A stretch of DNA of 41,902 nt from a virus. A program made the position numbers and the translations under genes. Below the pieces are notes generated by a model. That model did no database searches, was not told the origin of the DNA, and was given only the letters and a program-made list of their open reading frames with translations. Of this stretch, positions 8 to 28,984 are shown piece by piece (position 1 is the stretch's first letter; every line of letters starts with the position of its first letter). The stretch lies in the IMG/VR virus record IMGVR_UViG_3300042304_000146, positions 1 through 41,902 of that record; one strand, 5' to 3'.

Positions 8-40
8 ATTTATCCTACCAGAATTACCGAATTATGTCAA
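8..40 (-). promoter_or_regulatory. Candidate promoter reading off the left edge
   Basis: On the minus strand a TTGACA box (35-40) is followed after 17 bases by TAGGAT (12-17), which matches TATAAT at four of six positions. The same place also carries GATAAATA (8-15), one base away from the phage late motif TATAAATA. It overlaps the 3' end of the DruA-like gene, so it would serve a gene beyond the window. The two overlapping readings (sigma-70 or gp55 type) cannot be separated here. Confidence 0.35.
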
Positions 41-1139
41 GCACTTTATCACCAGTCCAGACTTCTTGTTCTGTACGAATACGACCTTCTGTCTTCAAGG
101 TCTCAAATCGATTGATAGCCTTCTTACGCCACCACTCTGTAATATTGGCCAGATTATGTTTCTCATAGTTCTCACCTGGAATTAACTTGTCAGTCTTTCC
201 ATTTACAAAATCAACCATGTTCTTAAAACCATAGTCTGAAATGAAGTAACGTTTCTGTTCATTCAGATTCTTGGCATTCTCAATCGTCTGTGCAAACTTA
301 GTAGCCTCTGGTGTGCCTTTGAGGCCAATCTTAATCATAGACACCATTGCATTAGAAATCTTCAACTTGCGTGAAGAAGCACCTTCTGGTGCAAGTGGTT
401 CACCAATGATATTCTCAATGTATTCTTTGAGGTCACTATAAGTTTTACCATGTAACATCGGCAAGAAATCACTATCAGTTAAACCTTTGAAACGAATCAG
501 AGGTTTCATACCATCATACTGTGATACTGCCTTTGAAGAACCATACAAACTGGTTGTTTCAAACAAGCAGGTGGTCATCTTATACTTTTCATCCAACATT
601 CTACGTACTTCATGTGTTGTACAAATGGCTGCAAGTAATTTACCACCGAGATAATTGAAACCAAATGGTTGTGCAGGTACAATCACAAAACCCATAGCGG
701 CACATTGATTGAACAATTGAGCACCACCTTCATGTTGCGTGAATACTTGGCCAAGCATTTCGTTGCGTGGTTTACAATTGATAACAGGAGAACCAAGACG
801 AATAAAACCAACCCACTTCTGTGATTTCTTTTCCCAAATTGCCAATCTTAAACACCGACCAGGAATACTGGTCATGTTTGAGTGACTTGAAATCATATTG
901 AGATAAATGTCCCACCTATCTTGTGGTAACTCCATGATTTCAAATTCCATATCAGCAGGTGACATAGTGAAATCAGAAAACAAATCTTCTTCTGGTCCCA
1001 TGCCAGGCAAAGTAAATGGTCTTTCGGCCATTGAATTTAGTTTCTGTTCTCTCATGTATTCATCAATACGACCAAACTTATCAAAGTAGTTGGAGAATAC
1101 ATTTGCACAATGTACGGCTTGTTCTTTAGTTAATGTCAT
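24..1139 (-). CDS. DruA-like (DUF4338-type) protein, paralogue 2
   Basis: This 371-residue protein is the last gene of the polymerase-recombinase-helicase run, and its start overlaps the gp41 stop by 4 bases. It is clearly related to the product of 17643-18920: both carry an IVPxQPxGFNYxGGKLLA block and then a TTSLYG...SQYDG block. This pattern resembles the core of DUF4338/DruA proteins, which have a GNAT-like fold, where an ILPW...NLAS segment is followed by LLETFV...GT.YRAA. That resemblance is from memory and remote. The C-terminal 120 residues (EWWRKKAINRF and around) are not shared with that core. Function is unknown; an acyltransferase-type or nucleic-acid-associated role is only a guess. 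The gene itself is certain, the family is moderately supported. Confidence 0.75.
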   Translation of the reverse strand: MTLTKEQAVHCANVFSNYFDKFGRIDEYMREQKLNSMAERPFTLPGMGPEEDLFSDFTMSPADMEFEIMELPQDRWDIYLNMISSHSNMTSIPGRCLRLAIWEKKSQKWVGFIRLGSPVINCKPRNEMLGQVFTQHEGGAQLFNQCAAMGFVIVPAQPFGFNYLGGKLLAAICTTHEVRRMLDEKYKMTTCLFETTSLYGSSKAVSQYDGMKPLIRFKGLTDSDFLPMLHGKTYSDLKEYIENIIGEPLAPEGASSRKLKISNAMVSMIKIGLKGTPEATKFAQTIENAKNLNEQKRYFISDYGFKNMVDFVNGKTDKLIPGENYEKHNLANITEWWRKKAINRFETLKTEGRIRTEQEVWTGDKVLDIIR

Positions 1140-15126: not shown

Positions 15127-17430
15127 TCAGGCAGCAATGCCTTGAATGAACTTGGAGACTAACACTCGGTTAATCTGTTTGCCTTTATTGAACTTCATAA
15201 AAGCATTCTTGAGCTTAGATGCTGTAAGTTTACCATCAACCTCAATTTCACCATCATTGGTCATTAAATCATTTCCACCAGAAATTAGGAAGAACGAATC
15301 ATAACCAGGATTGAATGAATGTAAAAACTTCTGAGTATCCAATTTACGCTTCAGTTGTTTAATCAACTCAGCATCTATGTTAGCATCAGAACGCTTAGTG
15401 TATAGAGGTAATCTATTTTCATTATGGTAGTAATGTCTAATGATGCCCTTTGAACGATGAGGAGGAACAATAAAGAAACCAAAAATCTTAGAGTTGGTTG
15501 TAGCGGTAAACCACTCAGCAACCGAAACAAACATTTCATTGCTTAAGTTGTTAGACTTAACTAGCTTCTGGTATTTTAATTTGTTATCTTGAAGGATAAC
15601 ATTCTCATACAATGGATGAAACCAATTGTAACCACCTTCATCATTTGCCACACAATTAGTGGAGTCAGCATCACCGTCATGGATAATTACCAAGTTTGTA
15701 ATATCCAAATTGTTGCTACGTTTAAAGTTTTTCATAATTGCTTGTGTTGCAACCAAAGCTTCTGTCAAAGGAGTATTTGAAAGTCTTTCAGAATGTGGTC
15801 TTTGCACAACACGAGCATAACGACCGCCTTCATAGGACTTTTTCAACAATACCATGTTACGCAAGGCCTTGGTAAATTCAGCATTTGTCATTTTAGAATT
15901 TAAATATTCACGCAATGAAATAGCTTCAAATTTTAATTCACCAGATTGGTACATAAAACATTGACGAACTTCCATAGGATTTCCAAGAACGCTAAGTGGT
16001 ACAGCAGTAGTCTTGGGATTATCAATTGACCATGTGGAAGAATCATTACTGAATGCATAAACATGGAATGGAATGTTTACTTTACGGCAGAACATGGAAA
16101 GAACCAAGATTTGTTCAATAGAACCTGCCATGTTATCTGACATAGAACCAGAATAATCAAGCAACAGAATCAAACCATGTGATTTGCCTTTTGGCACTTG
16201 CATGATTTTACGGAAGATATTGTCATCAAAACGGTATGAAGCCAGTTTGTTAACATCAACATCACCAGTATCCGATTGCTTTGCCTTACTGAATGATTTG
16301 GCAGCCTTACGCATTTCAAACTCTTTGGCAAGCAATGCAATGTAACGTTCATTTCTATTACGAAATTCTTGTACAAAACCATTGATTCTTTCATCTGTTA
16401 TATAACCATCTTTAACCTGATTTGCAAAATCTAATGTCAACAACTCTTGAACCCGTTTTGCAGGTGTGATAATTTTAGACAAAATAGGTGTAGGCATATT
16501 AGCGTACACATAAGGCTTGCATTTTTCATCAAGCAATGTCACTTCGTTTTTGCGGTAGTTATCGTCAGTTACACATTCTGGATCAAAATCTTCTGAATCG
16601 AAATTGGACATTTGCGAATCTTTATCACGATTCACATTGTTGCCGTCATCATCAGAATCGGAATCGTCACCTTCACCATCAGAGTTACCATCGGTTTCTT
16701 CATCGGTAGTTTCATCTGAGGTTTCATCCGAATCTTCGCTGTCGCCAGATTCACCATTATCCAATTCAGTATCATAATCATAATCGGAATTGGTATCATC
16801 TTCATCTAAGGGATTGCCTTCAGCGTCATATTCAAAATCATCACCAATTGATAATTCAAATTGTTCATTCTTACAATAACCATAAATCTTTTCAGTTACC
16901 CGAAGCACATCATTCCATGTTTCAAGCATTTGAACTTCACCAATCATTTGCATTTCTTCAACAGAAAATCTAATGTTTTCGCTGTATTGGCTCTTGGTAT
17001 AGATATTCAATCGGTCAATGAATGACATATGGTTAATGTCACGATGTTGGATGCCAAAGAAATCACGGTCACTTAATTCAGCATATGCTTTACGGAATGA
17101 TGATTTAAGGCCTGGATATTTACGAATAACTTTTTTCTCAATGCGAGCATCTTCAATCACATTAAGGAAAGCTTTATAATTCTTACCTCTGTTTTTATCG
17201 GTAACAACATCATGCCAACCATCCGCAGGAGTATAAAGAGCATGACCGACCTCATGGCCGCCAAGCAAATCATACATGAAACTTGACATATCTTTCCACA
17301 TAGGAAGATAAAGAATCCGTTTAGTTGGGTCAAATTTGGCAGTATGGATTTTTGAATGTTGAATGGTAAGGTTCTCAGTTGCCATCAACTTGGCAAGCTG
17401 AGATTTTTGTTCTACTGTAAATGCTGTCAT
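15127..17430 (-). CDS. VWA-domain protein with HEXXH motif (CobT-like)
   Basis: 767 residues in three parts. The N-terminal third has a zinc-metallopeptidase-type HEVGH at 59-63 followed by ALYTPADGW. The middle, about 200-285, is extremely rich in D, E and S, like the acidic linker of CobT chelatase subunits. The C-terminal part is a von Willebrand factor A domain with the metal-site motif DYSGSMS near 425 and a later IHDGDADS. CobT pairs with the AAA protein CobS, encoded next. Whether HEXXH is catalytic or structural is not visible, but its helix context (GGHEVGHALY) looks like a real metal site. It could be a metal-insertion or protein-remodelling machine; no CobN subunit is present here. 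Confidence 0.88.
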   Translation of the reverse strand: MTAFTVEQKSQLAKLMATENLTIQHSKIHTAKFDPTKRILYLPMWKDMSSFMYDLLGGHEVGHALYTPADGWHDVVTDKNRGKNYKAFLNVIEDARIEKKVIRKYPGLKSSFRKAYAELSDRDFFGIQHRDINHMSFIDRLNIYTKSQYSENIRFSVEEMQMIGEVQMLETWNDVLRVTEKIYGYCKNEQFELSIGDDFEYDAEGNPLDEDDTNSDYDYDTELDNGESGDSEDSDETSDETTDEETDGNSDGEGDDSDSDDDGNNVNRDKDSQMSNFDSEDFDPECVTDDNYRKNEVTLLDEKCKPYVYANMPTPILSKIITPAKRVQELLTLDFANQVKDGYITDERINGFVQEFRNRNERYIALLAKEFEMRKAAKSFSKAKQSDTGDVDVNKLASYRFDDNIFRKIMQVPKGKSHGLILLLDYSGSMSDNMAGSIEQILVLSMFCRKVNIPFHVYAFSNDSSTWSIDNPKTTAVPLSVLGNPMEVRQCFMYQSGELKFEAISLREYLNSKMTNAEFTKALRNMVLLKKSYEGGRYARVVQRPHSERLSNTPLTEALVATQAIMKNFKRSNNLDITNLVIIHDGDADSTNCVANDEGGYNWFHPLYENVILQDNKLKYQKLVKSNNLSNEMFVSVAEWFTATTNSKIFGFFIVPPHRSKGIIRHYYHNENRLPLYTKRSDANIDAELIKQLKRKLDTQKFLHSFNPGYDSFFLISGGNDLMTNDGEIEVDGKLTASKLKNAFMKFNKGKQINRVLVSKFIQGIAA

Positions 17431-17457
17431 GCAAAACCTTTTTGAATTTATCTAACC

Positions 17458-17485
17458 ATTATATCAAAACTGGAGGATTTGTCAA
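17458..17485 (-). promoter_or_regulatory. Sigma-70 promoter for the CobT-like gene
   Basis: Minus strand TTGACA (17480-17485), 16-base spacer, exact TATAAT (17458-17463). The start is expected near 17451, about 20 bases upstream of the ATG at 17430, with AAAAGG as ribosome site. It lies directly downstream of the tRNA-like RNA. Confidence 0.88.
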
Positions 17486-17489
17486 GAGC

Positions 17490-17530
17490 CTGTTGCGTAA
17501 AAACAACAGTTGGGAAGTCGCATGGGACTT
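17490..17530 (-). repeat. Two 3' trailer hairpins of the tRNA-like transcript
   Basis: Minus strand: AAGTC/GACTT with a 6-base loop (17515-17530), then CTGTTG/CAACAG with an 8-base loop (17490-17509). The second ends five bases before the next -35 box and lacks a U tract, so termination would be inefficient. They may define the processed 3' end of the upstream RNA. Confidence 0.5.
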
Positions 17531-17535
17531 AGGAA

Positions 17536-17598
17536 TGGAGCGGATAACAGGAGTTAAACCTGTCTGCCCGTTGGGACGGGCTGTCTCGGACTCTCCGC
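17536..17598 (-). tRNA. tRNA-Gly(CCC)-like RNA with miniature D arm
   Basis: Read on the minus strand. Acceptor stem GCGGAGA/TATCCGC has one mismatch, then U as discriminator base and an encoded CCA (ends 17536). The T arm is a perfect 5-bp stem ACAGG/CCTGT with a 7-base loop TTTAACT. The anticodon-like arm GCCCG/CGGGC has loop TCCCAA, reading U33, CCC, AA. The D arm is reduced to a 3-bp mini-hairpin GTC-CGA-GAC and the variable region to two bases, so the whole is only 63 nt. G1-C72, C2-G71, U73 and C35-C36 are the glycine identity elements of bacterial tRNAs. The T-loop C56 is replaced by U, in keeping with the missing D loop. It is probably not a normal elongator tRNA; tRNA-like regulatory RNA or decoy are alternatives. 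Confidence 0.6.
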
Positions 17599-17608
17599 AT
17601 TTGTGTCT

Positions 17609-17637
17609 ATTATATAATTATATAGGCTGTTTGTCAA
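17609..17637 (-). promoter_or_regulatory. Perfect sigma-70 promoter for the tRNA-like RNA
   Basis: Minus strand TTGACA (17632-17637), 17-base spacer, TATAAT (17609-17614), an exact consensus promoter. The predicted start (about 17601-17602) is only three or four bases upstream of the 5' end of the tRNA-like fold, which ties the promoter to that RNA. Confidence 0.93.
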
Positions 17638-17642
17638 GCGTT

Positions 17643-18920
17643 TTAACGACCAACTTGGCAAAGATACTTCTCTTTTGCCTGTTCCCATGTTAGATAACAG
17701 AGGTCGTCATAGAACAAGGTTTCGTTATTGTTACGGCCTTTTTTGGCCAATTGTTTGATACGTGGTTTGGCATGTTTAGTTCTCCAAATATCAACTAAGG
17801 CTTCAACGCTTGTATCAAATGATTTAACCAAGTCATCATCACCAATTTTCTTATTAAGGTAATCAATAGAGTTATCGTATAGTGGCGACCAATAAATGCC
17901 TCGAGCATGGTCTGTACGAATCAACTCTTTAGGAATATTCAATTTAGAATAAACAAACTGAAGTGAACGATTCTTATGGTCACGCTTATGTGGTTGTCCG
18001 CTTGGCTTCTTTGCAACATACCATTCAAAGTATTTACGTGTATGTTTTGTTTTCAACCAATCACGAATATCATATCGTGTTTCTTTTTCTGGTTCAAATG
18101 ATACCGAACCTGCCGTAAATCCCATTTTCTGCCAGTGGTCTAGACCATCATACTGAGAAAGTCCATCAGCCTTAGTTCTACCATACAATGAAGTTGTAGT
18201 TACAGAAACTAATGTGTCGCCATATAATTTCTTCCACAATTCTTGTACAGGATCGGCAAGACATAGAAGTGCCAGTAATTTACCACCAACATAATTAAAA
18301 CCAAGTGGCTGCAATGGAACAATTGTAGAACCAATTGCAGTATGGTTAATCATACCGCCTTGTGTTTTAAGTTCTCTTGGCCAACCAATGTGATTATCTC
18401 TTGGTGTCAAATCAAGAAAGTCTGATGAAATACAAATAACACCAAGATACTTCTTTGTTACCTTATCACGAATGATGAAGTTTAGATTGCGGCCAATGTT
18501 AGAGTTGTTCTTCATTGTAGAAGAAAAGGTGCGAATACAATTCCACAATTCAGGCAAGTTCTCACCTTTGTTTGTGTAAATCATTTCAGGTTCAAGTTTC
18601 AGATAATCTTCAAGTGTTTCTGGAATCCAAAAGTTGTTCTTAATGTCATCAATAGCATCACGTTGAACATCACTCTGTAATACAACCTTCTCACCTTCCC
18701 ACAAATCATTAACAGTCATTGTAGGATATCTGTCTTGCACTTCACACCATTTTTGGTATAATGTATATTCTTTGACATCCATCTTTGATACAAATGTAAG
18801 GTCACTAATGATTTTCTCACGTAAAGTCTCATCAGTCAAAACAGCAGGCTCTTTAAAGTCTGCATGCCATTTTGTCCATTGCGTATCTACATCATCTTTT
18901 GGGTCAAATCCGTATGCCAT
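17643..18920 (-). CDS. DruA-like (DUF4338-type) protein, paralogue 1
   Basis: 425 residues. The central region carries KKYLGVICISS, then RDNHIGW, then IVPLQPLGFNYVGGKLLALL, TTTSLYG and SQYDGLDHWQKMGF. From memory, DUF4338/DruA proteins show the same order: a G.(L/I) strand, RD.WIGW, ILPWVRV..LAS and a GT.Y.AA.W block, so a shared GNAT-like fold is likely. The product of 24-1139 is a clear relative. The N-terminal 140 residues and the basic C-terminal 130 (KPSGQPHKRDHKNRS and onward) are extra. Its ATG overlaps the peptide deformylase stop by one base. Function in phages is unknown; DruA is known as a component of the Druantia defence system. Confidence 0.78.
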   Translation of the reverse strand: MAYGFDPKDDVDTQWTKWHADFKEPAVLTDETLREKIISDLTFVSKMDVKEYTLYQKWCEVQDRYPTMTVNDLWEGEKVVLQSDVQRDAIDDIKNNFWIPETLEDYLKLEPEMIYTNKGENLPELWNCIRTFSSTMKNNSNIGRNLNFIIRDKVTKKYLGVICISSDFLDLTPRDNHIGWPRELKTQGGMINHTAIGSTIVPLQPLGFNYVGGKLLALLCLADPVQELWKKLYGDTLVSVTTTSLYGRTKADGLSQYDGLDHWQKMGFTAGSVSFEPEKETRYDIRDWLKTKHTRKYFEWYVAKKPSGQPHKRDHKNRSLQFVYSKLNIPKELIRTDHARGIYWSPLYDNSIDYLNKKIGDDDLVKSFDTSVEALVDIWRTKHAKPRIKQLAKKGRNNNETLFYDDLCYLTWEQAKEKYLCQVGR

Positions 18921-22870: not shown

Positions 22871-23265
22871 AGCGGTGTTCCGTTTTCAGATAATTCTTTA
22901 GTTACCTTTTCCAGTAACCTCAAGACACGTTTACGATAGTCAAATCCTAGTATCGATGCCTTGGTCCCATCATTGTAGGGTGGGTTTCTCCCTTGAGAAT
23001 AGTATTGTTCGGCAGTCAGGTCAATCAAATCTCCGTTAACATCTACTACCCACCAATGCCAGATTTGTTCATCATCTAAAGCACGGTATAGTTTAATATT
23101 CTTTGTACCAAATACTTTCTGTAGGCAACCAGAAGCGGTATGACAATGGCCAAACATTGGGTTGTTTGAATTACGTTCAACCCATTTCTTAGGTAATAAG
23201 TCTGGTGATAGATTTCTAATAATGATATCTGACACCAATTTTAAATTCTTCTTATTGTATTCCAT
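22867..23265 (-). CDS. Small papain-like/transglutaminase-like protein
   Basis: 132 residues. A GHCHTASGCL segment (C41 flanked by H40 and H42), then WHWWVVDVNGDLIDLT (H70, D82), gives the Cys-His-Asp order of papain-like and transglutaminase-like enzymes. In this family pattern the cysteine starts a helix and the histidine starts a beta-strand, as it appears here. It could be a protease, amidase or transferase; the substrate is unknown. The start overlaps the epimerase stop by one base, so it is part of the sugar operon, but it is also the last gene before gp55. Confidence 0.7.
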   Translation of the reverse strand: MEYNKKNLKLVSDIIIRNLSPDLLPKKWVERNSNNPMFGHCHTASGCLQKVFGTKNIKLYRALDDEQIWHWWVVDVNGDLIDLTAEQYYSQGRNPPYNDGTKASILGFDYRKRVLRLLEKVTKELSENGTPL

Positions 23266-24191
23266 TAAACATTACCATATTTACGGTTGTTAATCATACG
23301 ATAACCCTTAATGAGTTCTTCAACACCTGAATCTAATGTGTGTTGAGTTTTGAAACCAGTTGCCTCAATCTTTTCATTAGATACAATATAGTTTCGTTGG
23401 TCAGGGTCTTTACCAACTTCAGCTTCCAAAAATGTGAAACTAGGAATATATTTCTTAATCACTTCACACAGTTCCCATTTAGAAACATTAGCCTCTGATA
23501 AACCCACATTGTAGATTTCATCTTTCATGTCTTCAAAGTTATTTAGCGCATGTACAAATGCATTAGAAACATCACGTACATGAACATAGTTACGTTTGAA
23601 ATGGCCTTCAAATAACACAGCACATCCATCATTAACGGCTCGGTGTACAAAATCGTTGACAAGCAAATCAATTCTCATACGTGGTGACATACCAAATACT
23701 GTTGCCAATCGGTAACTAATGGAGTTAGGATGATCCATCAAACGTTTCTCGACTTCAACTTTATCTTTGGCATAAAGTGAAATAGGATTCAATGATGATT
23801 CTTCGGTACAATATGTACCTGTACCATAGGCACTATTAGTTGTAGGCATCAATACGACTTGATTCTGTGACAAGTTATCAAGCATCAAAAAGATGGCATC
23901 TTTATTGGTAGAAGATGCACCAATTGGATCCTTGTTACACAATGGTGCACCAACATATGCAGCCAATGGAATAATAACATCAGCTTGTTTTAACATTGGT
24001 GCAATGTCAGATTTAATACGAACATCACCACTAAACACATTAAAGTTTTTCAAGTGTGCCAATTGGTTCAAAGACGTTTGGCCATACATAAAGTTATCAA
24101 GTACAGTTACGTTATGTCCTTTACTTAAAAGAATTGGTACAAGTGTAGAACCAATATACCCTGCACCGCCTGTCACTAAAATATTTGCCAT
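23265..24191 (-). CDS. NAD-dependent sugar epimerase/dehydratase (extended SDR)
   Basis: 308 residues. Rossmann motif GGAGYIG at 8-14, catalytic S120 in TTNSAYG and the YxxxK motif Y140/K144 are present. Members of this family epimerise or reduce nucleotide-activated sugars. Its place directly after a ColD-like 3-dehydratase suggests it acts on the 4-keto-3-deoxy product, for example as epimerase/reductase. One base separates it from the dehydratase gene. The exact reaction cannot be read from the sequence. Confidence 0.9.
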   Translation of the reverse strand: MANILVTGGAGYIGSTLVPILLSKGHNVTVLDNFMYGQTSLNQLAHLKNFNVFSGDVRIKSDIAPMLKQADVIIPLAAYVGAPLCNKDPIGASSTNKDAIFLMLDNLSQNQVVLMPTTNSAYGTGTYCTEESSLNPISLYAKDKVEVEKRLMDHPNSISYRLATVFGMSPRMRIDLLVNDFVHRAVNDGCAVLFEGHFKRNYVHVRDVSNAFVHALNNFEDMKDEIYNVGLSEANVSKWELCEVIKKYIPSFTFLEAEVGKDPDQRNYIVSNEKIEATGFKTQHTLDSGVEELIKGYRMINNRKYGNV

Positions 24192-24192
24192 T

Positions 24193-25362
24193 TTATACCT
24201 TATTAATTATTTCACAAATCTCATCAATTTCATTTACTGTCATTGATGGAAAATTACCAATGTAGAATCCATAGAAGTGAATATGTTCCGTGTTTTTAAA
24301 TTCTTCGTAGTGTGCAGGAGGCATTAAGTTTTTCAAATAAGGTTGTCTTAATTGATTACCACCACCAGCACTGCCTCTTCTGAATTCAACTCCAGATTCT
24401 TTCAAGGTCTTCATAAGATTAGCCAAACGAACATTATCTTTATCTTTTAACACTAGGTTGAATGCATAGTTACTAGCACCTTCTAGCTCAAAATCAGTAA
24501 AGTATTTGTTTGAATCTATGTTACGTAAGAACCTTTCATTGTTAAAGTTCCTTATTTTAACATTTTCATCTAAGTTTGGCAACTGTTTTCGACCAAGTAT
24601 GCCGCCTATTTCGTTGTTACGCATATTGTAAGCCGGGTAAGCAAAAATGAATTCTGGATTACAACCGGGATTATCTTCAATCCAACAATCTTTATAGTCT
24701 TGGTTAGATAGCTCACGAACCATACCATGTGACCTTAACATTCTCAAGGTCTGATAAGTTTCTTCATCATTGGTACAAACCATACCGCCTTCAATTGTGG
24801 TCATGTGATGAGCATAGTAGAATGAGAAATTAGAAGTCCAACCAAAAGACCCTAGTTTCTTACCTTTATGTGTTGCACCATGTGATTCACACACATCTTC
24901 AATTAAAGGAATATCTCGTTTCTTTAATTCATCCAACAATTCATCAGTAAGGCCATTAAAACCTTGGATATGTGATAAGAAAACTGCCTTAGTGTTTGGT
25001 GTGATGGCATTAATAATACCTTTTGTATCCATTGCCAATGTTCTTGGGTCAATATCAACAAACACTGGTGTGAATCCGCATTGCAATACAGAAGCTATAT
25101 CTGATACCCATGTCAAAGGTGGTACAATGATTTCACCACCAAATGGGTGTTGAATCTTCAATAAGGTCATTGACAACAGATTGGCAGAAGCACCTGAGTT
25201 AACAAAAACAGAATACTTAACGCCTAACCACTTAGACCATTCTTCTTCGAATGCTCGGCAATTAGGGCCATTGGTTAGAATTGGATCATCTTGTTTCAAA
25301 TGCTCAATGACGGCATCTAACTCACTTCTCAAAATATTATTTCGCATTAATGGAAATTTCAT
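24193..25362 (-). CDS. PLP-dependent nucleotide-sugar 3-dehydratase (DegT family, ColD-like)
   Basis: 389 residues, fold-type I aminotransferase of the DegT/DnrJ/EryC1 family. In place of the usual Schiff-base lysine (SFxxxK) the sequence reads SFYYAHHMTTIEGG, with His185 at the lysine position. Histidine there marks the C-3 dehydratases ColD and RfbH (E1), which remove the 3-hydroxyl of a 4-keto-6-deoxy sugar, and not aminotransferases. The PLP-binding aspartate is in IEDVCESHGA (D156). It lacks the cysteine cluster of the iron-sulfur E1 type as far as I can see, so ColD is the closer model. Length equals ColD (388). It is therefore likely a step toward a 3,6-dideoxyhexose. Confidence 0.88.
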   Translation of the reverse strand: MKFPLMRNNILRSELDAVIEHLKQDDPILTNGPNCRAFEEEWSKWLGVKYSVFVNSGASANLLSMTLLKIQHPFGGEIIVPPLTWVSDIASVLQCGFTPVFVDIDPRTLAMDTKGIINAITPNTKAVFLSHIQGFNGLTDELLDELKKRDIPLIEDVCESHGATHKGKKLGSFGWTSNFSFYYAHHMTTIEGGMVCTNDEETYQTLRMLRSHGMVRELSNQDYKDCWIEDNPGCNPEFIFAYPAYNMRNNEIGGILGRKQLPNLDENVKIRNFNNERFLRNIDSNKYFTDFELEGASNYAFNLVLKDKDNVRLANLMKTLKESGVEFRRGSAGGGNQLRQPYLKNLMPPAHYEEFKNTEHIHFYGFYIGNFPSMTVNEIDEICEIINKV

Positions 25363-25370
25363 AATAAACC

Positions 25371-26354
25371 TCAGTTTGATTGATGTATAATTTGGCTACC
25401 ATTTGTATCAAATTTAAATGGCACCCACACTTTAATAGAACTCATTTGTTTTTTAAATTCTCCTTGTCTCTCAGGTGGTACTAAAAACATAAAAAAACCA
25501 CCACCGCCAGCACCCATTAGTTTGCCACCTAATGAGCCACATTGTAAAGAATGTTGGTAGATATCATCAATCCATGGTTCTGTACCAATGGATTGTTTGA
25601 TAGTAAACCCTTCGTGTAGTAACTTTCCAATTTCTTCTACACTACAATGTCTGGTAATACTATTTATGGCGCTGTCCGCAAGTGCTGCCATATCTGTCAG
25701 TTGACTATGAATTTTATCTTCTTTAATTTTGGTAACAACTTTACAAGAATGTTCTCCTGAAAATCTACTTACTCCAGAAAACCCAAGCATGATATGAGAC
25801 TCTAGATTTTTAATGTAATTAGAATCTAATTTTAATTCTTCTGTTGACCAACCATTTTCATTCATTTTAATAACACGAATACCGCCATATGCAGCCATGA
25901 TTTGGTCTTGTATGCCTACATTCTCACCTAGAACATTCTGTTCAATGTGTATGGCTTCTTTTGCCAGGCAATTTAAAGACCCAAAAGGTTTATTCTTATA
26001 TTCATGTAGAGCATTCAATAGACCAACTGTGAATGAAGAACTGGAGCCTATGCCAGAACGTGCAGGTAAGTCTCCATCATGCACAATAGAAATGTCTCCT
26101 GTAATCCCCATGTGTTGTAAACATGCTCTAACAGAAGGATGGTCTATCTCATCTACTGTGTTAACGCTTTCAATTTTGGAGTAAACCACTCTTGTTTTAT
26201 GTTCAAAGAATGGCGGTAACTCTTTAACAGTAATATAACAATAGTTTGCCATTGCAGCTGATAAAATCCTGCATGGATGTTTACTATACCATGCAGGATA
26301 ATCTGTGCCGCCACCAAATAGAGATAAACGATATGGTGTTTTAGTGATAATCAT
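25371..26354 (-). CDS. GHMP sugar kinase, heptose-7-phosphate kinase type
   Basis: 327 residues. Motif 1 TPYRLSLFGGGTDYPAW at the N terminus, the phosphate-binding PARSGIGSSSS at 97-107, and motif 3 GGKLMGAGGGGFF near 290 are all intact. The N-terminal signature matches D-glycero-D-manno-heptose 7-phosphate 1-kinases (HddA) and fucokinase-like relatives. It phosphorylates a sugar or sugar phosphate at the anomeric position, the step before nucleotide activation. It overlaps the TPP enzyme half upstream by 4 bases. No guanylyl/cytidylyltransferase gene is in the window, so activation depends on the host or on genes elsewhere. Confidence 0.9.
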   Translation of the reverse strand: MIITKTPYRLSLFGGGTDYPAWYSKHPCRILSAAMANYCYITVKELPPFFEHKTRVVYSKIESVNTVDEIDHPSVRACLQHMGITGDISIVHDGDLPARSGIGSSSSFTVGLLNALHEYKNKPFGSLNCLAKEAIHIEQNVLGENVGIQDQIMAAYGGIRVIKMNENGWSTEELKLDSNYIKNLESHIMLGFSGVSRFSGEHSCKVVTKIKEDKIHSQLTDMAALADSAINSITRHCSVEEIGKLLHEGFTIKQSIGTEPWIDDIYQHSLQCGSLGGKLMGAGGGGFFMFLVPPERQGEFKKQMSSIKVWVPFKFDTNGSQIIHQSN

Positions 26355-26881
26355 TTTTCATTATAATAATCTCCGTACTCAACAATAATTGTAGAACGGT
26401 TATCATCTCTCAATAACGCAAGTTCATAAGCAGGGAATATATCCTTAGGATTTTCAAGTTTAATAATATCTACCGTTTTACACATCAATTTAAATGCATC
26501 AGTAAAATCACCAACGTGTTGTGCCTGTGGATGTAATGGCCTTTCTGAACCAATACTTGTACGAATAATAGTCTTTACTTTATAATCAGACATTGCTGAC
26601 ACTTTATCTAGGTGACTCACCAACTGATTGGTCGCACATAATAGAAAGTTCCATCTTGGATAGATGCTAACTGGAATATGACCACTCAATGCCATACCTA
26701 AAGTCATACCCATCTGCATATCTTCTGCAACAGGTAACTCTAATAGCTTACTGCGGTCAATATCTTTCAAAGTGTTTGACATGCCTGTACCTGGTTCTGC
26801 TACTGCCTGACCCATAAACAACACACGTTCATGTGTCGCAAGCCATTCCATGCTACGTTTTAATTCATCAAAGTATTTCAA
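26351..26881 (-). CDS. TPP enzyme, pyrimidine-binding half (transketolase/E1-beta-like)
   Basis: 176 residues. The cofactor-activating glutamate is in LPVAEDMQMGMTLGMAL (E53). The SIYPRWNFLLCATNQL and RTSIG segments correspond to the Pyr domain of E1-beta and transketolase. It stops after this domain: the C-terminal transketolase domain of normal E1-beta (about 325 residues) is absent. It overlaps the partner half upstream by 4 bases, so the two subunits are made together. Similar split pairs act in sugar or sulfonate metabolism (transketolase-like, ComDE-like). The reaction is unknown. Confidence 0.88.
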   Translation of the reverse strand: MKYFDELKRSMEWLATHERVLFMGQAVAEPGTGMSNTLKDIDRSKLLELPVAEDMQMGMTLGMALSGHIPVSIYPRWNFLLCATNQLVSHLDKVSAMSDYKVKTIIRTSIGSERPLHPQAQHVGDFTDAFKLMCKTVDIIKLENPKDIFPAYELALLRDDNRSTIIVEYGDYYNEK

Positions 26882-27477
26882 AACTGCACTCTCTTTCCAG
26901 CACCTGCATGTGGGTACTTGTTATCATATTTGTAATAAACAATTTTATCATTAATAGCATTTTCGAAAGTTAATTCTTTAAAACCCCAAGCATCTCTTGT
27001 GTCGGTACATACAGACTTACTATTATCTTCAATGATAAACTTAATTGGCAAATTATGGTTCAAGGCATACTTAATAGACTCATGAGCAATACCTGTTTCA
27101 GAAGTCATATCACCTAAGAAACAATATACCATTGCATCTTTCTTATCACGTTTAAGTGACATAGCAGTACCCACCGCAATTGGTAAAACACCACCAACAA
27201 TAGCAGAGGAGTAAATATTGTAATCGGTAAAACACAATGTAATAGAGTGGCCTTTTACGATTTCTTCTTCCACTTTATTCATTGGAACACCTTTTAGAAG
27301 GCATTGATAGTGTGAGCGCCAAGAACAGAATACCCAATCATCAGGTCTAACGTCTTTCATTATCTCAATCATTTGTTCCTCATTGCCAGAATAAAGATGA
27401 ACTGGTGCTCTAATATCACCATTGTTGAATCTATCGGCAATTCGGTTCTCGAAATTAATTAAATCATCTTTAGTCAC
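26878..27477 (-). CDS. TPP enzyme, pyrophosphate-binding half (transketolase/E1-alpha-like)
   Basis: 199 residues. The thiamine diphosphate motif runs from GDM at 122-124 to N152 with 27 residues between, the standard GDG-x(24-27)-N spacing with methionine for the last glycine. An upstream segment (FCSWRSHYQCLLKGVP, then GGVLPIAVGTAMSLK) is typical of the E1-alpha PP domain. With the next gene it forms a minimal two-subunit enzyme that transfers a two-carbon or acyl unit. It overlaps the radical SAM gene by 8 bases. A route to a branched or chain-lengthened sugar is one possibility. Confidence 0.9.
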   Translation of the reverse strand: MTKDDLINFENRIADRFNNGDIRAPVHLYSGNEEQMIEIMKDVRPDDWVFCSWRSHYQCLLKGVPMNKVEEEIVKGHSITLCFTDYNIYSSAIVGGVLPIAVGTAMSLKRDKKDAMVYCFLGDMTSETGIAHESIKYALNHNLPIKFIIEDNSKSVCTDTRDAWGFKELTFENAINDKIVYYKYDNKYPHAGAGKRVQF

Positions 27478-28984
27478 CTAGAATTTTCCTTTTCAAACGA
27501 ATTTGGGCCATATTTTCTACATTTTGTTTAGACTGAGCACCAAATTTATCATCTACCAAATTAATAAAGTTTTCATTAGAGAAGTATGTGTGCCATGCAT
27601 CATCACGAAACTTCAATACTTCCGCACCTGTCAATGTGTTAGTACGCATTGGTTTACAATCATATGATAAGAAGGCATATTCTTCAAATGATTGCGGCAA
27701 TTCCCAGTTATTACTTTTAGCATGCATATACAATGGACTACCAGGCAAAGCCATAGCTGCATAGAAGTTGGCATGTTCACAATTCAACTCAAGCGCAAGG
27801 TCTAATGTCTCTTGCATTGTTTCATATGTGTCTGTTGGAAAACCAAACATATAGTTACCAAGTACATTGATGCCAGCATCTTTGATATCACTCACAACTT
27901 GGCGGATATCAACTTGTTCAAAACGACCTTTATCAATCTCAAGTCTAACGTTTTGATTACCTGCTTCGATGCCTAATGCTAACCAATTTACACCAGCCTT
28001 TTTAAATAATGCAAGTTGGTCTTTACGAATAGAATCAACACGAGCATATGCCCACATATTAAATTTTAAACCACGGTCAATAATGCCTTGTAGAATCGGC
28101 ACATAGAACTTCTTATTAAGAAAAAACATTTCATCTGTAATACGAATTGTTCTAACACCTGAATTGTACAAGGCTTCGAATTCTTTTAATACCAATTCTG
28201 GAGACCAAAATCTCATACCTTTAGAATCAGCCGATGTTGTTCCCATATCATAAGAAGTTCTGTTGACAATGTTAATCATACAGAAGTTACATGCAAATTG
28301 GCAACCTAATGATGTGTAAATTGCCGCAAATGGTGTTCTTCCTTCATCTAAGAAGTTTGTATGCCAATAGTGAGCACGATATGTGTCTAATAGGTTTTCT
28401 CTTTTAGGTAATAAGTCCCATGCATAACCCGGCATCATAATGTCCATGTCTCTAGTTTCAACAACTTTAGCAGGCGCTGATGGTCTATGTAATGAATGTT
28501 GTTTGTACCAAATACCTGGAACTTTATCCAACTCATTAACTAAATCTGTTTGTAACAATGCGTGGAGGGCATGAACACCTTCATTAATAAAAGCAAAGTC
28601 AACAAAGTTATATTTAATTACTTCATGTGGTAATGCAGACACATGTGAGCCAACAAAAGCAATCTTTAGATTTGGATGACTAATACGTAATTGTTTTGCT
28701 AATGATGTGGCACCAATCATCATTGTGGTGCCTGAGTTTGGATTTTGTCCGTAGAGAACAAATACTACCAACTTTGGTTTTGTATCGGCAATTGATTCTG
28801 CCGCATCTTCGTCTGTCTTTGGTGTTGCATCAAAGTCCAGAATACAAGGCTCATGTCCTTTTGCTCTAACTGATTGAGCAAGTAAACACGCCCATGTTGG
28901 TGGTTCAATTGCTGAGTGGTAGTTTGCTAAATCCTGATAGGCCTTTTTAGCACTACTTGGTACCACGAATGTCACGTTTGCCAT
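27470..28984 (-). CDS. B12-type radical SAM enzyme
   Basis: 504 residues. The N-terminal ~150 residues form a cobalamin-binding-like Rossmann domain (KPKLVVFVLYGQNP, IAFVGSHVSALP), but lack the DxHxxG cobalt-ligand motif. The radical SAM core starts with the iron-sulfur motif C228-x3-C232-x2-C235 (LGCQFACNFC), followed by IRITDEMFFLN and the GIEAGNQNVR segment. Class B enzymes of this shape methylate or rearrange unreactive carbons. It opens the sugar operon, so a methyl-branched or rearranged sugar is a reasonable guess. The exact substrate is unknown. Confidence 0.92.
   Translation of the reverse strand: MANVTFVVPSSAKKAYQDLANYHSAIEPPTWACLLAQSVRAKGHEPCILDFDATPKTDEDAAESIADTKPKLVVFVLYGQNPNSGTTMMIGATSLAKQLRISHPNLKIAFVGSHVSALPHEVIKYNFVDFAFINEGVHALHALLQTDLVNELDKVPGIWYKQHSLHRPSAPAKVVETRDMDIMMPGYAWDLLPKRENLLDTYRAHYWHTNFLDEGRTPFAAIYTSLGCQFACNFCMINIVNRTSYDMGTTSADSKGMRFWSPELVLKEFEALYNSGVRTIRITDEMFFLNKKFYVPILQGIIDRGLKFNMWAYARVDSIRKDQLALFKKAGVNWLALGIEAGNQNVRLEIDKGRFEQVDIRQVVSDIKDAGINVLGNYMFGFPTDTYETMQETLDLALELNCEHANFYAAMALPGSPLYMHAKSNNWELPQSFEEYAFLSYDCKPMRTNTLTGAEVLKFRDDAWHTYFSNENFINLVDDKFGAQSKQNVENMAQIRLKRKILGD

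Follow-up and report, generated by a model that had tools for sequence, protein, structure and literature searches.

A 63-nt RNA encoded by a T4-like phage is a tRNA-Gly-like mini-RNA and belongs to a family in which, as sequence comparison has shown, the helices covary and a minimal tRNA fold is conserved together with an encoded CCA end. Judging from its sequence, the mini-RNA seems to be built for charging with glycine and not for use on the ribosome. A preliminary description of this DNA had suggested a decoy, an aminoacyl donor or a regulator that keeps recognition by glycyl-tRNA synthetase (GlyRS) and has lost its D loop. Our analysis supports this interpretation in so far as we find a phage RNA with glycine identity that is unlikely to be an elongator, but not in the assumption that the D loop is simply lost. 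Among the three roles, that of a donor is best supported. We see about an even chance that the mini-RNA is a non-ribosomal tRNA-Gly, which is charged by the host GlyRS and hands over its glycine to an enzyme of the phage, for which the DruA-type protein encoded next to it is the leading candidate.

The window, by which we mean the whole analysed stretch of 41,902 nucleotides, represents part of a T4-like myovirus genome from IMG/VR and encodes portal and sheath proteins, a DNA polymerase, SbcC/SbcD-like subunits and a late sigma factor. Among isolates, Pelagibacter phage Mosig (55%), Methylophilales phage Melnitz (55%) and Synechococcus phages (51-52%) come closest in the portal protein, and Mosig and HTVC008M in the DruA-type protein. 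The mini-RNA is flanked upstream by a DruA/DUF4338 gene (PF14236, phrog_19197; 425 aa; 17643..18920, minus strand), assigned by its profile match and the predicted GNAT fold of its product, and downstream by a phrog_459 'peptidase' gene (767 aa; 15127..17430, minus strand), which served as synteny marker and has its own exact promoter at 17485..17458 on the minus strand. A second DruA-type gene (371 aa; 24..1139, minus strand) was assigned by a full-length match to phrog_19197, to which a cyanophage relative also belongs. Such a second, shorter paralogue is present in all eight large RNA-bearing records searched, each of which has two DruA-type genes.

The 157.7-kb record G001 is identical to the window in the mini-RNA and in both neighbour proteins. 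It carries 23 ordinary tRNAs, among them a tRNA-Gly(UCC) located 60 kb from the mini-RNA, so the earlier term 'solitary' holds for the 41.9-kb fragment but not for this larger record. The 23 tRNA genes are clustered at 86.6-90.3 kb (L262:6647-10274) and cover most amino acids. With the Rfam tRNA model, 21 ordinary tRNAs of G001 but not the mini-RNA were matched in the seven of eight slices covered.

The mini-RNA is located at positions 17536..17598 on the minus strand, with G1 at 17598 and the CCA end at 17536, and reads GCGGAGA GUCCGAGAC A GCCCGUCCCAACGGGC AG ACAGGUUUAACUCCUGU UAUCCGC UCCA from 5' to 3' (17598..17536). Its assignment is based on sequence, fold, pair counts and a covariance model, which gives it 85.5 bits, the same sequence having also been used in building the model. 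The acceptor stem consists of the 5' strand GCGGAGA with G1 and C2 (17592..17598) and the 3' strand UAUCCGC followed by U73-CCA (17536..17546), both assigned by sequence and pair counts. Between these strands, and likewise on the minus strand, there are a mini D hairpin of 3 bp (GUC-CGA-GAC; 17583..17591), seen in the fold and with a triloop A that covaries with T-loop position 56, an anticodon-like hairpin with a C-rich tetraloop (GCCCGU-CCCA-ACGGGC; 17566..17581), based on fold, pair counts and arm parsing, a variable link of 2 nt, and a T arm (ACAGG-UUUAACU-CCUGU; 17547..17563) with the pairs A49-U65 and A51-U63, based on fold, pair counts and the T-stem count. All four arms are present in the minimum-energy fold of the stretch 17599..17537, i.e. 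from U-1 through the second C of CCA (z = -3.9), and none of 200 shuffled sequences was equally stable. The composition that had been described before, a 63-nt RNA with acceptor stem, CCA, T arm and a 3-bp mini-hairpin, is therefore confirmed by sequence and fold, with the qualification that acceptor pair 6-67 is a G.A mismatch. Also the CCC of the anticodon-like loop is present, but it is predicted to lie in a CCCA tetraloop closed by 6 bp or in UCCCAA closed by 5 bp instead of a 7-nt anticodon loop.

By motif search we found the exact sigma-70 promoter TTGACA-17-TATAAT reported before at 17637..17609 (17609..17637, minus strand). It ends 10 nt before G1 and transcription would therefore be expected to start 4-5 nt before G1, where three or four bases had been proposed. 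The window contains four exact promoters with a spacer of 15-19 nt, including this one, and all of them are on the minus strand. Among 108 relatives examined, 54 have a match to TTGAC[AT]-15..19-TANNWT at most 60 nt upstream of the RNA, and G1 is nearly always directly preceded by U, which suits RNase P. Inverted repeats of the type TGTTG-loop-CAACA recur just upstream of TTGACA promoters, both in the window (17490-17509) and in relatives.

We also looked for a longer conventional tRNA fold that might explain the same bases and reject this possibility. ARAGORN did not report the mini-RNA in its default, intron and metazoan-mitochondrial modes, and with thresholds lowered to 75% or 60% the matches listed are other, mutually overlapping folds. 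Rfam assigned no family at gathering score within the window, and a permissive Rfam scan of 17400-17700 gave no tRNA match up to E = 10. We found no description of the RNA family in Rfam or in the part of the literature covered by our search.

The family comprises at least 110 distinct members, 63-70 nt in length and found in IMG/VR phage contigs, that start with GCGG and end with CCGCUCCA, both ends, including the acceptor part of the glycine identity set, being imposed by the search filter. It recurs in many T4-like phage contigs from aquatic (freshwater and marine) environments. Three kinds of searches in IMG/VR were used, with protein neighbours, with a pattern for the 63-nt kind and with a pattern for the longer kind of RNA. 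The D-hairpin variants of class I stem from the protein-neighbour searches (best 80 loci each), and the invariance of the class I D hairpin is partly built in by the 63-nt pattern. A further copy outside the filter, in locus L009, has C2 changed to A, which breaks the acceptor pair. In genome_contigs there was a single match, on the MAG contig L266 (labelled Deltaproteobacteria). It is without the acceptor ends and seems fortuitous; we rejected it, and the genome_contigs scan thus gives no cellular class I copy.

Two classes can be distinguished by parsing the arms without an alignment, a procedure that could not resolve the anticodon arm in a few cases. In class I RNAs of 63-66 nt (some members 68 nt), the D hairpin ends in a triloop and the anticodon-like loop has 4-7 nt and is rich in C, examples being CCCA, CCCC and UCCCC, with some loops consisting of C only. 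Class II RNAs have mostly 67-70 nt. Their D stem of 2-3 bp closes a loop of 3-7 nt, a 5-nt loop (GUCCA, UACCC, CACCC, UCCCC) caps an anticodon-like stem of mostly 7-9 bp, and sequences such as UGCGAAU form the T loop. The GUGC motif at the class II T loop presumably resembles staphylococcal tRNA-Gly forms. Tandem pairs of RNAs occur in nine loci (L139, L149, L098, L111, L038, L039, L042, L044 and L237).

Conservation of the stems in relatives had been set beforehand as a check, and the stems are indeed kept. In a MAFFT alignment of 30 sequences, with the D arm one column out of register in its last two rows, 91.5% of the pair cells show standard pairing compared to 78.8% after shuffling, and there are 65 cells with a double change compared to 18.5 in the shuffles. 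If the partner is slid by one to three columns, pairing falls to 36-52%. The acceptor stem has two weak pairs in this alignment, as 6-67 is unpaired in 22 and 7-66 in 17 of the 30 sequences.

The covariation extends to the contact between D loop and T loop. In ordinary tRNAs, the D-loop residues G18 and G19 contact psi55 and C56 in the T loop. Within the mini-RNA family both loops change together, with CGA facing U56, CGU facing A56, GGAU facing A56 and AG-bearing loops facing C56; the combination CGU/A56 is found in two RNAs with the D stems GUC/GAC and UUC/GAA. Positions 19 and 56 form a Watson-Crick pair (A-U, U-A or G-C) in all 31 unambiguous distinct D/T combinations, with residues assigned by hand, the inner AG of loops such as AUAGA taken as 18-19 and three of 34 combinations left out as ambiguous, and none of 100,000 shuffles was as good. 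Position 18-55 alternates between G.U (once G-C) and A.G. It was correctly noted before that T-loop position 56 is U in the window. The proposal that it adapted to a lost D loop needs to be revised, as U56 can pair with the remaining, covarying D loop. Since U56 covaries as one half of a D-loop pair, the elbow contact appears to be kept in miniature, and the D hairpin is, by this comparative evidence, shrunken rather than lost. The family illustrates to what extent a glycine tRNA can be reduced in size without losing its synthetase identity and an elbow contact.

At least 13 changes of RNA type are found on a tree of DruA proteins, the 79 rows of which were chosen for having an RNA. This points to RNA forms that have repeatedly been replaced by one another at the same place. 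As a consequence the D/T combinations are not all independent, yet the two CGU/A56 cases lie apart on the DruA tree. The switch at 18-55 is also found in otherwise ordinary tRNAs, since among related tRNA-Gly(GCC) genes of 75 nt that of L569 reads G18/U55, while those of L525 and L566 read A18/G55.

The bacterial glycine identity set is given in PMC9976931 as G1-C72, C2-G71, U73, C35 and C36. The window RNA possesses this set completely, in agreement with the preliminary description, and across the family CC is retained at the loop position corresponding to 35-36, while the 7-nt anticodon loop with U33 is gone. From the features of a canonical elongator, the mini-RNA has the CCA end, the paired acceptor stem and the 5-bp T arm. 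It lacks the 7-nt loop with U33, the loops being placed instead mostly on stems of 5-9 bp, and it lacks the combination of G18G19 with U54, U55 and C56, instead of which the window RNA has the triloop CGA, the T loop UUUAACU and the covarying pair.

There is a further peculiarity in the T stem. At 51-63, a pair that modulates EF-Tu binding, 95 of 100 mini-RNAs have A-U or U-A (10 of the 110 members, for which a 4-bp T stem scored better, were omitted) compared to four of 17 full-size tRNA-Gly of 74-75 nt from related phages (16 picked via a match to the RNA model, one with an odd T loop; Fisher p = 2.7e-10). This applies to 45 of 47 RNAs of class I, defined here as at most 66 nt or a T loop beginning with UUU or UCU, to 50 of 53 RNAs of class II and to all 16 of the marine 74-nt forms described below. 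As 49-65 is C-G or G-C in 45 of 53 class II RNAs, only 51-63 is consistently weak throughout the family. The window RNA has both A49-U65 and A51-U63 and lacks GG at 18-19. The same three features, A49-U65, A51-U63 and the missing GG at 18-19, are described in PMC4052509 for non-proteinogenic tRNA-Gly of S. aureus, and tRNA-Gly with weak 49-65 and 51-63 pairs is held there to serve cell-wall synthesis.

The next piece of evidence is the link of the RNA with the DruA-type gene. In 36 comparable loci, in which the sequence extends 2.5 kb or more upstream of the phrog_459 gene, RNA and DruA gene occur or are missing together without exception if the mutated RNA of L009 is counted. Both are present in 24 loci, many of them near-identical, neither in 11, and L009 has the DruA gene and the RNA with the acceptor change; no locus has the RNA alone. 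Ten of the 11 RNA-free records, fragments of 8-84 kb, were searched as a whole and revealed neither PF14236 nor a match to the RNA model, and the eleventh (L076) is also without PF14236. Within a single phage lineage such a linkage may stem from shared descent.

Considering all 376 placements, in which overlapping loci are recounted and many loci were fetched through the DruA gene itself, the RNA lies at most 250 nt downstream of a DruA gene in 188 of 201 cases for RNAs of at most 66 nt (class I in this count) and in 124 of 175 cases for longer ones. For 34 of the 175 class II placements at least 1.5 kb of upstream sequence is free of a DruA gene, and in six further ones the DruA gene is more than 250 nt away, up to about 9 kb. 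Several of these DruA-less or DruA-distant class II RNAs sit in tRNA clusters beside a canonical tRNA-Gly(UCC). Through this RNA family the function of DUF4338/DruA proteins becomes accessible to testing. Other potential partners were considered as well. Neither FemAB (PF02388) nor FemAB-like proteins (PF13480) were found in any of six large records, while control genomes matched, and we rejected them as partners of the RNA. The N-terminal family of lanthipeptide dehydratases and PEARLs (PF04738) also had no match in the six large records, and none in the control genomes either, so that this result carries no weight.

The DruA-type protein (17643-18920) matches PF14236 with 63.4 bits (cut-off 27) and its structure was modelled from 36 window and locus sequences with a mean pLDDT of 84; a model of the DruA core alone reached 54.6. 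The best ten Foldseek matches in the PDB are nine acetyl- or acyltransferases (E 0.005-0.017) and, as the tenth, malonyl-CoA decarboxylase, none being below 0.001. Among the 50 VIA-align matches listed, 49 are acetyltransferases or Mom. The top one is Mom of phage Mu (8bv8_B; Z 9.3, rmsd 4.2, 173 of 202 residues aligned, 9% identity), followed by SpeG and others with Z 8.7 and below. The DruA-type protein is therefore predicted to have a GNAT fold, and since the lead of Mom is narrow and no PDB match of Foldseek reaches E 0.001, the designation 'GNAT' is safer than 'Mom-like'. The GNAT fold is common to Fem, L/F-transferase, MprF and Mom-type transferases. FemX, MprF and L/F-transferase do not occur among the 50 VIA-align matches listed, which does not exclude them, and the DruA profile, run against PDB sequences, weakly matched one irrelevant entry (E 0.25). 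Strong Foldseek matches of the DruA model in BFVD are uncharacterised proteins of the giant viruses Faunusvirus, Yasminevirus and Dasosvirus (E 8e-18 to 2e-8).

The upstream protein clearly belongs to the same domain family as DruA from Druantia (PF14236, PADLOC DruA models) but, unlike the latter, it is a phage gene product. A cyanophage relative has been labelled 'methylcarbamoylase mom' by its depositors, while its PHROG family is listed as of unknown function. In PMC12458937, the mentions of DruA listed concern Druantia as a whole, and the terms acetyltransferase, GNAT and Mom are absent; parts of PMC3874153 were also taken into account for DruA and Mom. According to a passage in PMC7824862, the Mom family moves an acyl group, 'such as glycyl coA', to N6 of adenine.

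Taken together, the weakness of 51-63 as in S. aureus, the canonical tRNA-Gly in G001 and the co-occurrence with a gene for a GNAT-fold protein favour the donor over the other two roles. The mini-RNA would be transcribed by the host RNA polymerase from its own promoter, trimmed by RNase P after U-1 and charged by the host GlyRS via U73, G1-C72, C2-G71 and C35/C36. The charged RNA would bind poorly to EF-Tu and would not decode, so that its glycine might be reserved for an aminoacyl-transfer reaction of the phage. The likeliest user of this glycine would be the DruA/DUF4338 protein encoded just upstream, with its predicted GNAT fold. Since Mom of phage Mu puts a glycine-derived group on N6 of adenine, the acceptor may by analogy be DNA, or else a protein or a small molecule. 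The more specific version, in which the mini-RNA serves as glycine donor for the modification of a nucleobase or macromolecule and the DruA GNAT transfers the glycyl group in the manner of Mom to phage DNA, is doubtful in our opinion.

If the charged RNA is indeed a donor, the uses of aminoacyl-tRNA outside the ribosome would extend to phages and possibly to DNA modification. If the DruA GNAT transfers glycyl groups to DNA, this would constitute a tRNA-dependent DNA modification, provide a biochemical activity for the DUF4338 family including DruA of Druantia and suggest a possible source of the glycine-derived groups of the Mom type.

It is also conceivable, although we think it rather improbable, that the mini-RNA is a decoy. 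As a mimic of tRNA-Gly, charged or uncharged, it would soak up a host defence enzyme or toxin that targets tRNA-Gly, for instance TacT-like acetyltransferases or nucleases, and thereby spare the tRNAs of the phage. The 23 tRNAs of G001 could reflect such a pressure on host tRNAs, and TacT is described in PMC9976931 to recognise Gly-tRNA-Gly by U73 and G71, both of which are present in the mini-RNA. However, the anticodon hairpin is the most altered part of the mini-RNA, and a stoichiometric decoy leaves the DruA link unexplained. Nucleases that act on tRNAs usually target the anticodon hairpin.

We consider it improbable that the RNA is a base-pairing regulator, in which the tRNA-like shape would ensure processing or stability and the C-rich loop (CCCA, CCCC, UCCCC) would pair with G-rich sites such as Shine-Dalgarno sequences. 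The class I forms do have a C-rich loop of 4-7 nt, but class II loops are mostly GUCCA, UACCC and CACCC and little beyond CC at 35-36 is kept throughout the family. Moreover, a regulator has no need for G1-C72, C2-G71, U73, the CCA end or a weak 51-63.

Even less probable is a titration of GlyRS, by which the RNA would occupy the host enzyme and either starve host translation or signal the glycine status. It would account for the conserved GlyRS identity elements, but phage translation would be harmed equally, and the weak 51-63 and the DruA linkage are not explained.

That the mini-RNA is a functional minimal elongator tRNA-Gly(CCC) for GGG codons, comparable to D-armless mitochondrial tRNAs, can hardly be expected. 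It does have CCC in the loop, the CCA end and the glycine identity set, and GGG accounts for 109 of 3005 glycine codons in G001 (ORFs of at least 100 aa). On the other hand it has a tetraloop on a 6-bp stem in place of a 7-nt loop with U33, some class I loops consist of C only, class II loops give GUCCA, and the canonical tRNA-Gly(UCC) that coexists with the mini-RNA in G001 can cover both GGA and GGG. Finally, tRNA genes are common recombination sites, and a decaying tRNA gene or recombination scar without function would fit the degenerate look and the broken acceptor pair of L009, but we reject this pseudogene reading as almost certainly wrong, since it is contradicted by 110 distinct sequences with compensatory changes in the helices and the tertiary pair and by a promoter-like site in half of the relatives.

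Returning to the donor, the closest known counterpart is the non-proteinogenic tRNA-Gly of S. aureus, described in PMC4052509 and PMC9976931 as donor for the Fem pentaglycine. The mini-RNA shares with it the glycine identity, the loss of GG18-19 and the existence of a separate canonical tRNA-Gly, and the window RNA additionally has both weak EF-Tu pairs, A49-U65 and A51-U63. In contrast to the staphylococcal RNAs, it is phage-borne, has 63-70 nt within its family and a mini D hairpin, lacks the 7-nt anticodon loop and is linked to a DruA/GNAT protein, with no Fem gene found in six records. Like D-armless mitochondrial tRNAs, for instance human mt-tRNA-Ser(GCU) (PMC9976931) and the minimal tRNAs of mites (PMC2797822), the mini-RNA is short, has a reduced D arm and is missed by the standard tRNA finder used. 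However, these tRNAs decode, whereas the mini-RNA has an altered anticodon loop and a reduced D loop that pairs with T-loop position 56. The likeness to the Mom system (PMC7824862) is that Mom of phage Mu is the top structural match of the adjacent DruA-type protein; the differences are that the donor there is an acyl-CoA, that an RNA partner is not mentioned in the relevant part of this source, and that sequence identity is 9%.

Marine loci with a DruA-type gene have an odd tRNA-Gly of 74 nt instead of the mini-RNA. We found it in 17 of 18 loci tested, namely those with at least 7.5 kb downstream among the best 80 relatives of the Mosig gene; L573, a marine DruA locus with 10 kb downstream, has no such RNA. 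The 74-nt forms have a T loop GGCAGUA or AGCGUUA, and their D loop reads A18-G19 and faces G55-C56. They keep a full-size D arm and a 7-nt anticodon loop with U33 and could still be able to decode. In HTVC008M, a solitary tRNA-Gly(ACC) with the T loop AGCGUUA is the only tRNA reported by ARAGORN (91140-91213; L488:11140-11213) and is placed 62 nt 3' of cobS. The corresponding 74-nt tRNA-Gly-like RNA of Mosig (MT647606.1, 7779-7852, minus strand) is not reported by ARAGORN and overlaps with the annotation of a hypothetical protein. It is also missed by the RNA model R1, so that an empty answer of R1 leaves this form possible. Melnitz, whose tRNAs are a subject of PMC9004378, yielded neither a DruA match nor such an RNA. 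The RNAs of HTVC008M and Mosig resemble the mini-RNA family in the start and end of the acceptor, in U73-CCA, in A18-G19/G55-C56 and in the presence of a DruA-type gene in the phage, but they differ from the mini-RNA in their length of 74 nt, the full-size D arm and the 7-nt loop with U33. Furthermore, they lie some kb downstream of DruA, whereas the mini-RNA is directly 3' of it.

Two additional observations concern the surroundings of these genes. The window contains a run of sugar and cofactor genes at 23265-28984, encoding an epimerase, a DegT aminotransferase, a GHMP kinase, transketolase-like and E1-like proteins and a B12-binding radical SAM protein. HTVC008M and Mosig share a short element 5' of the peptidase gene (L253:4117-4252 and L254:4697-4831), which is not tRNA-like and reads AGAAC ... 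GCTGTGCGA ... TGACGCA.
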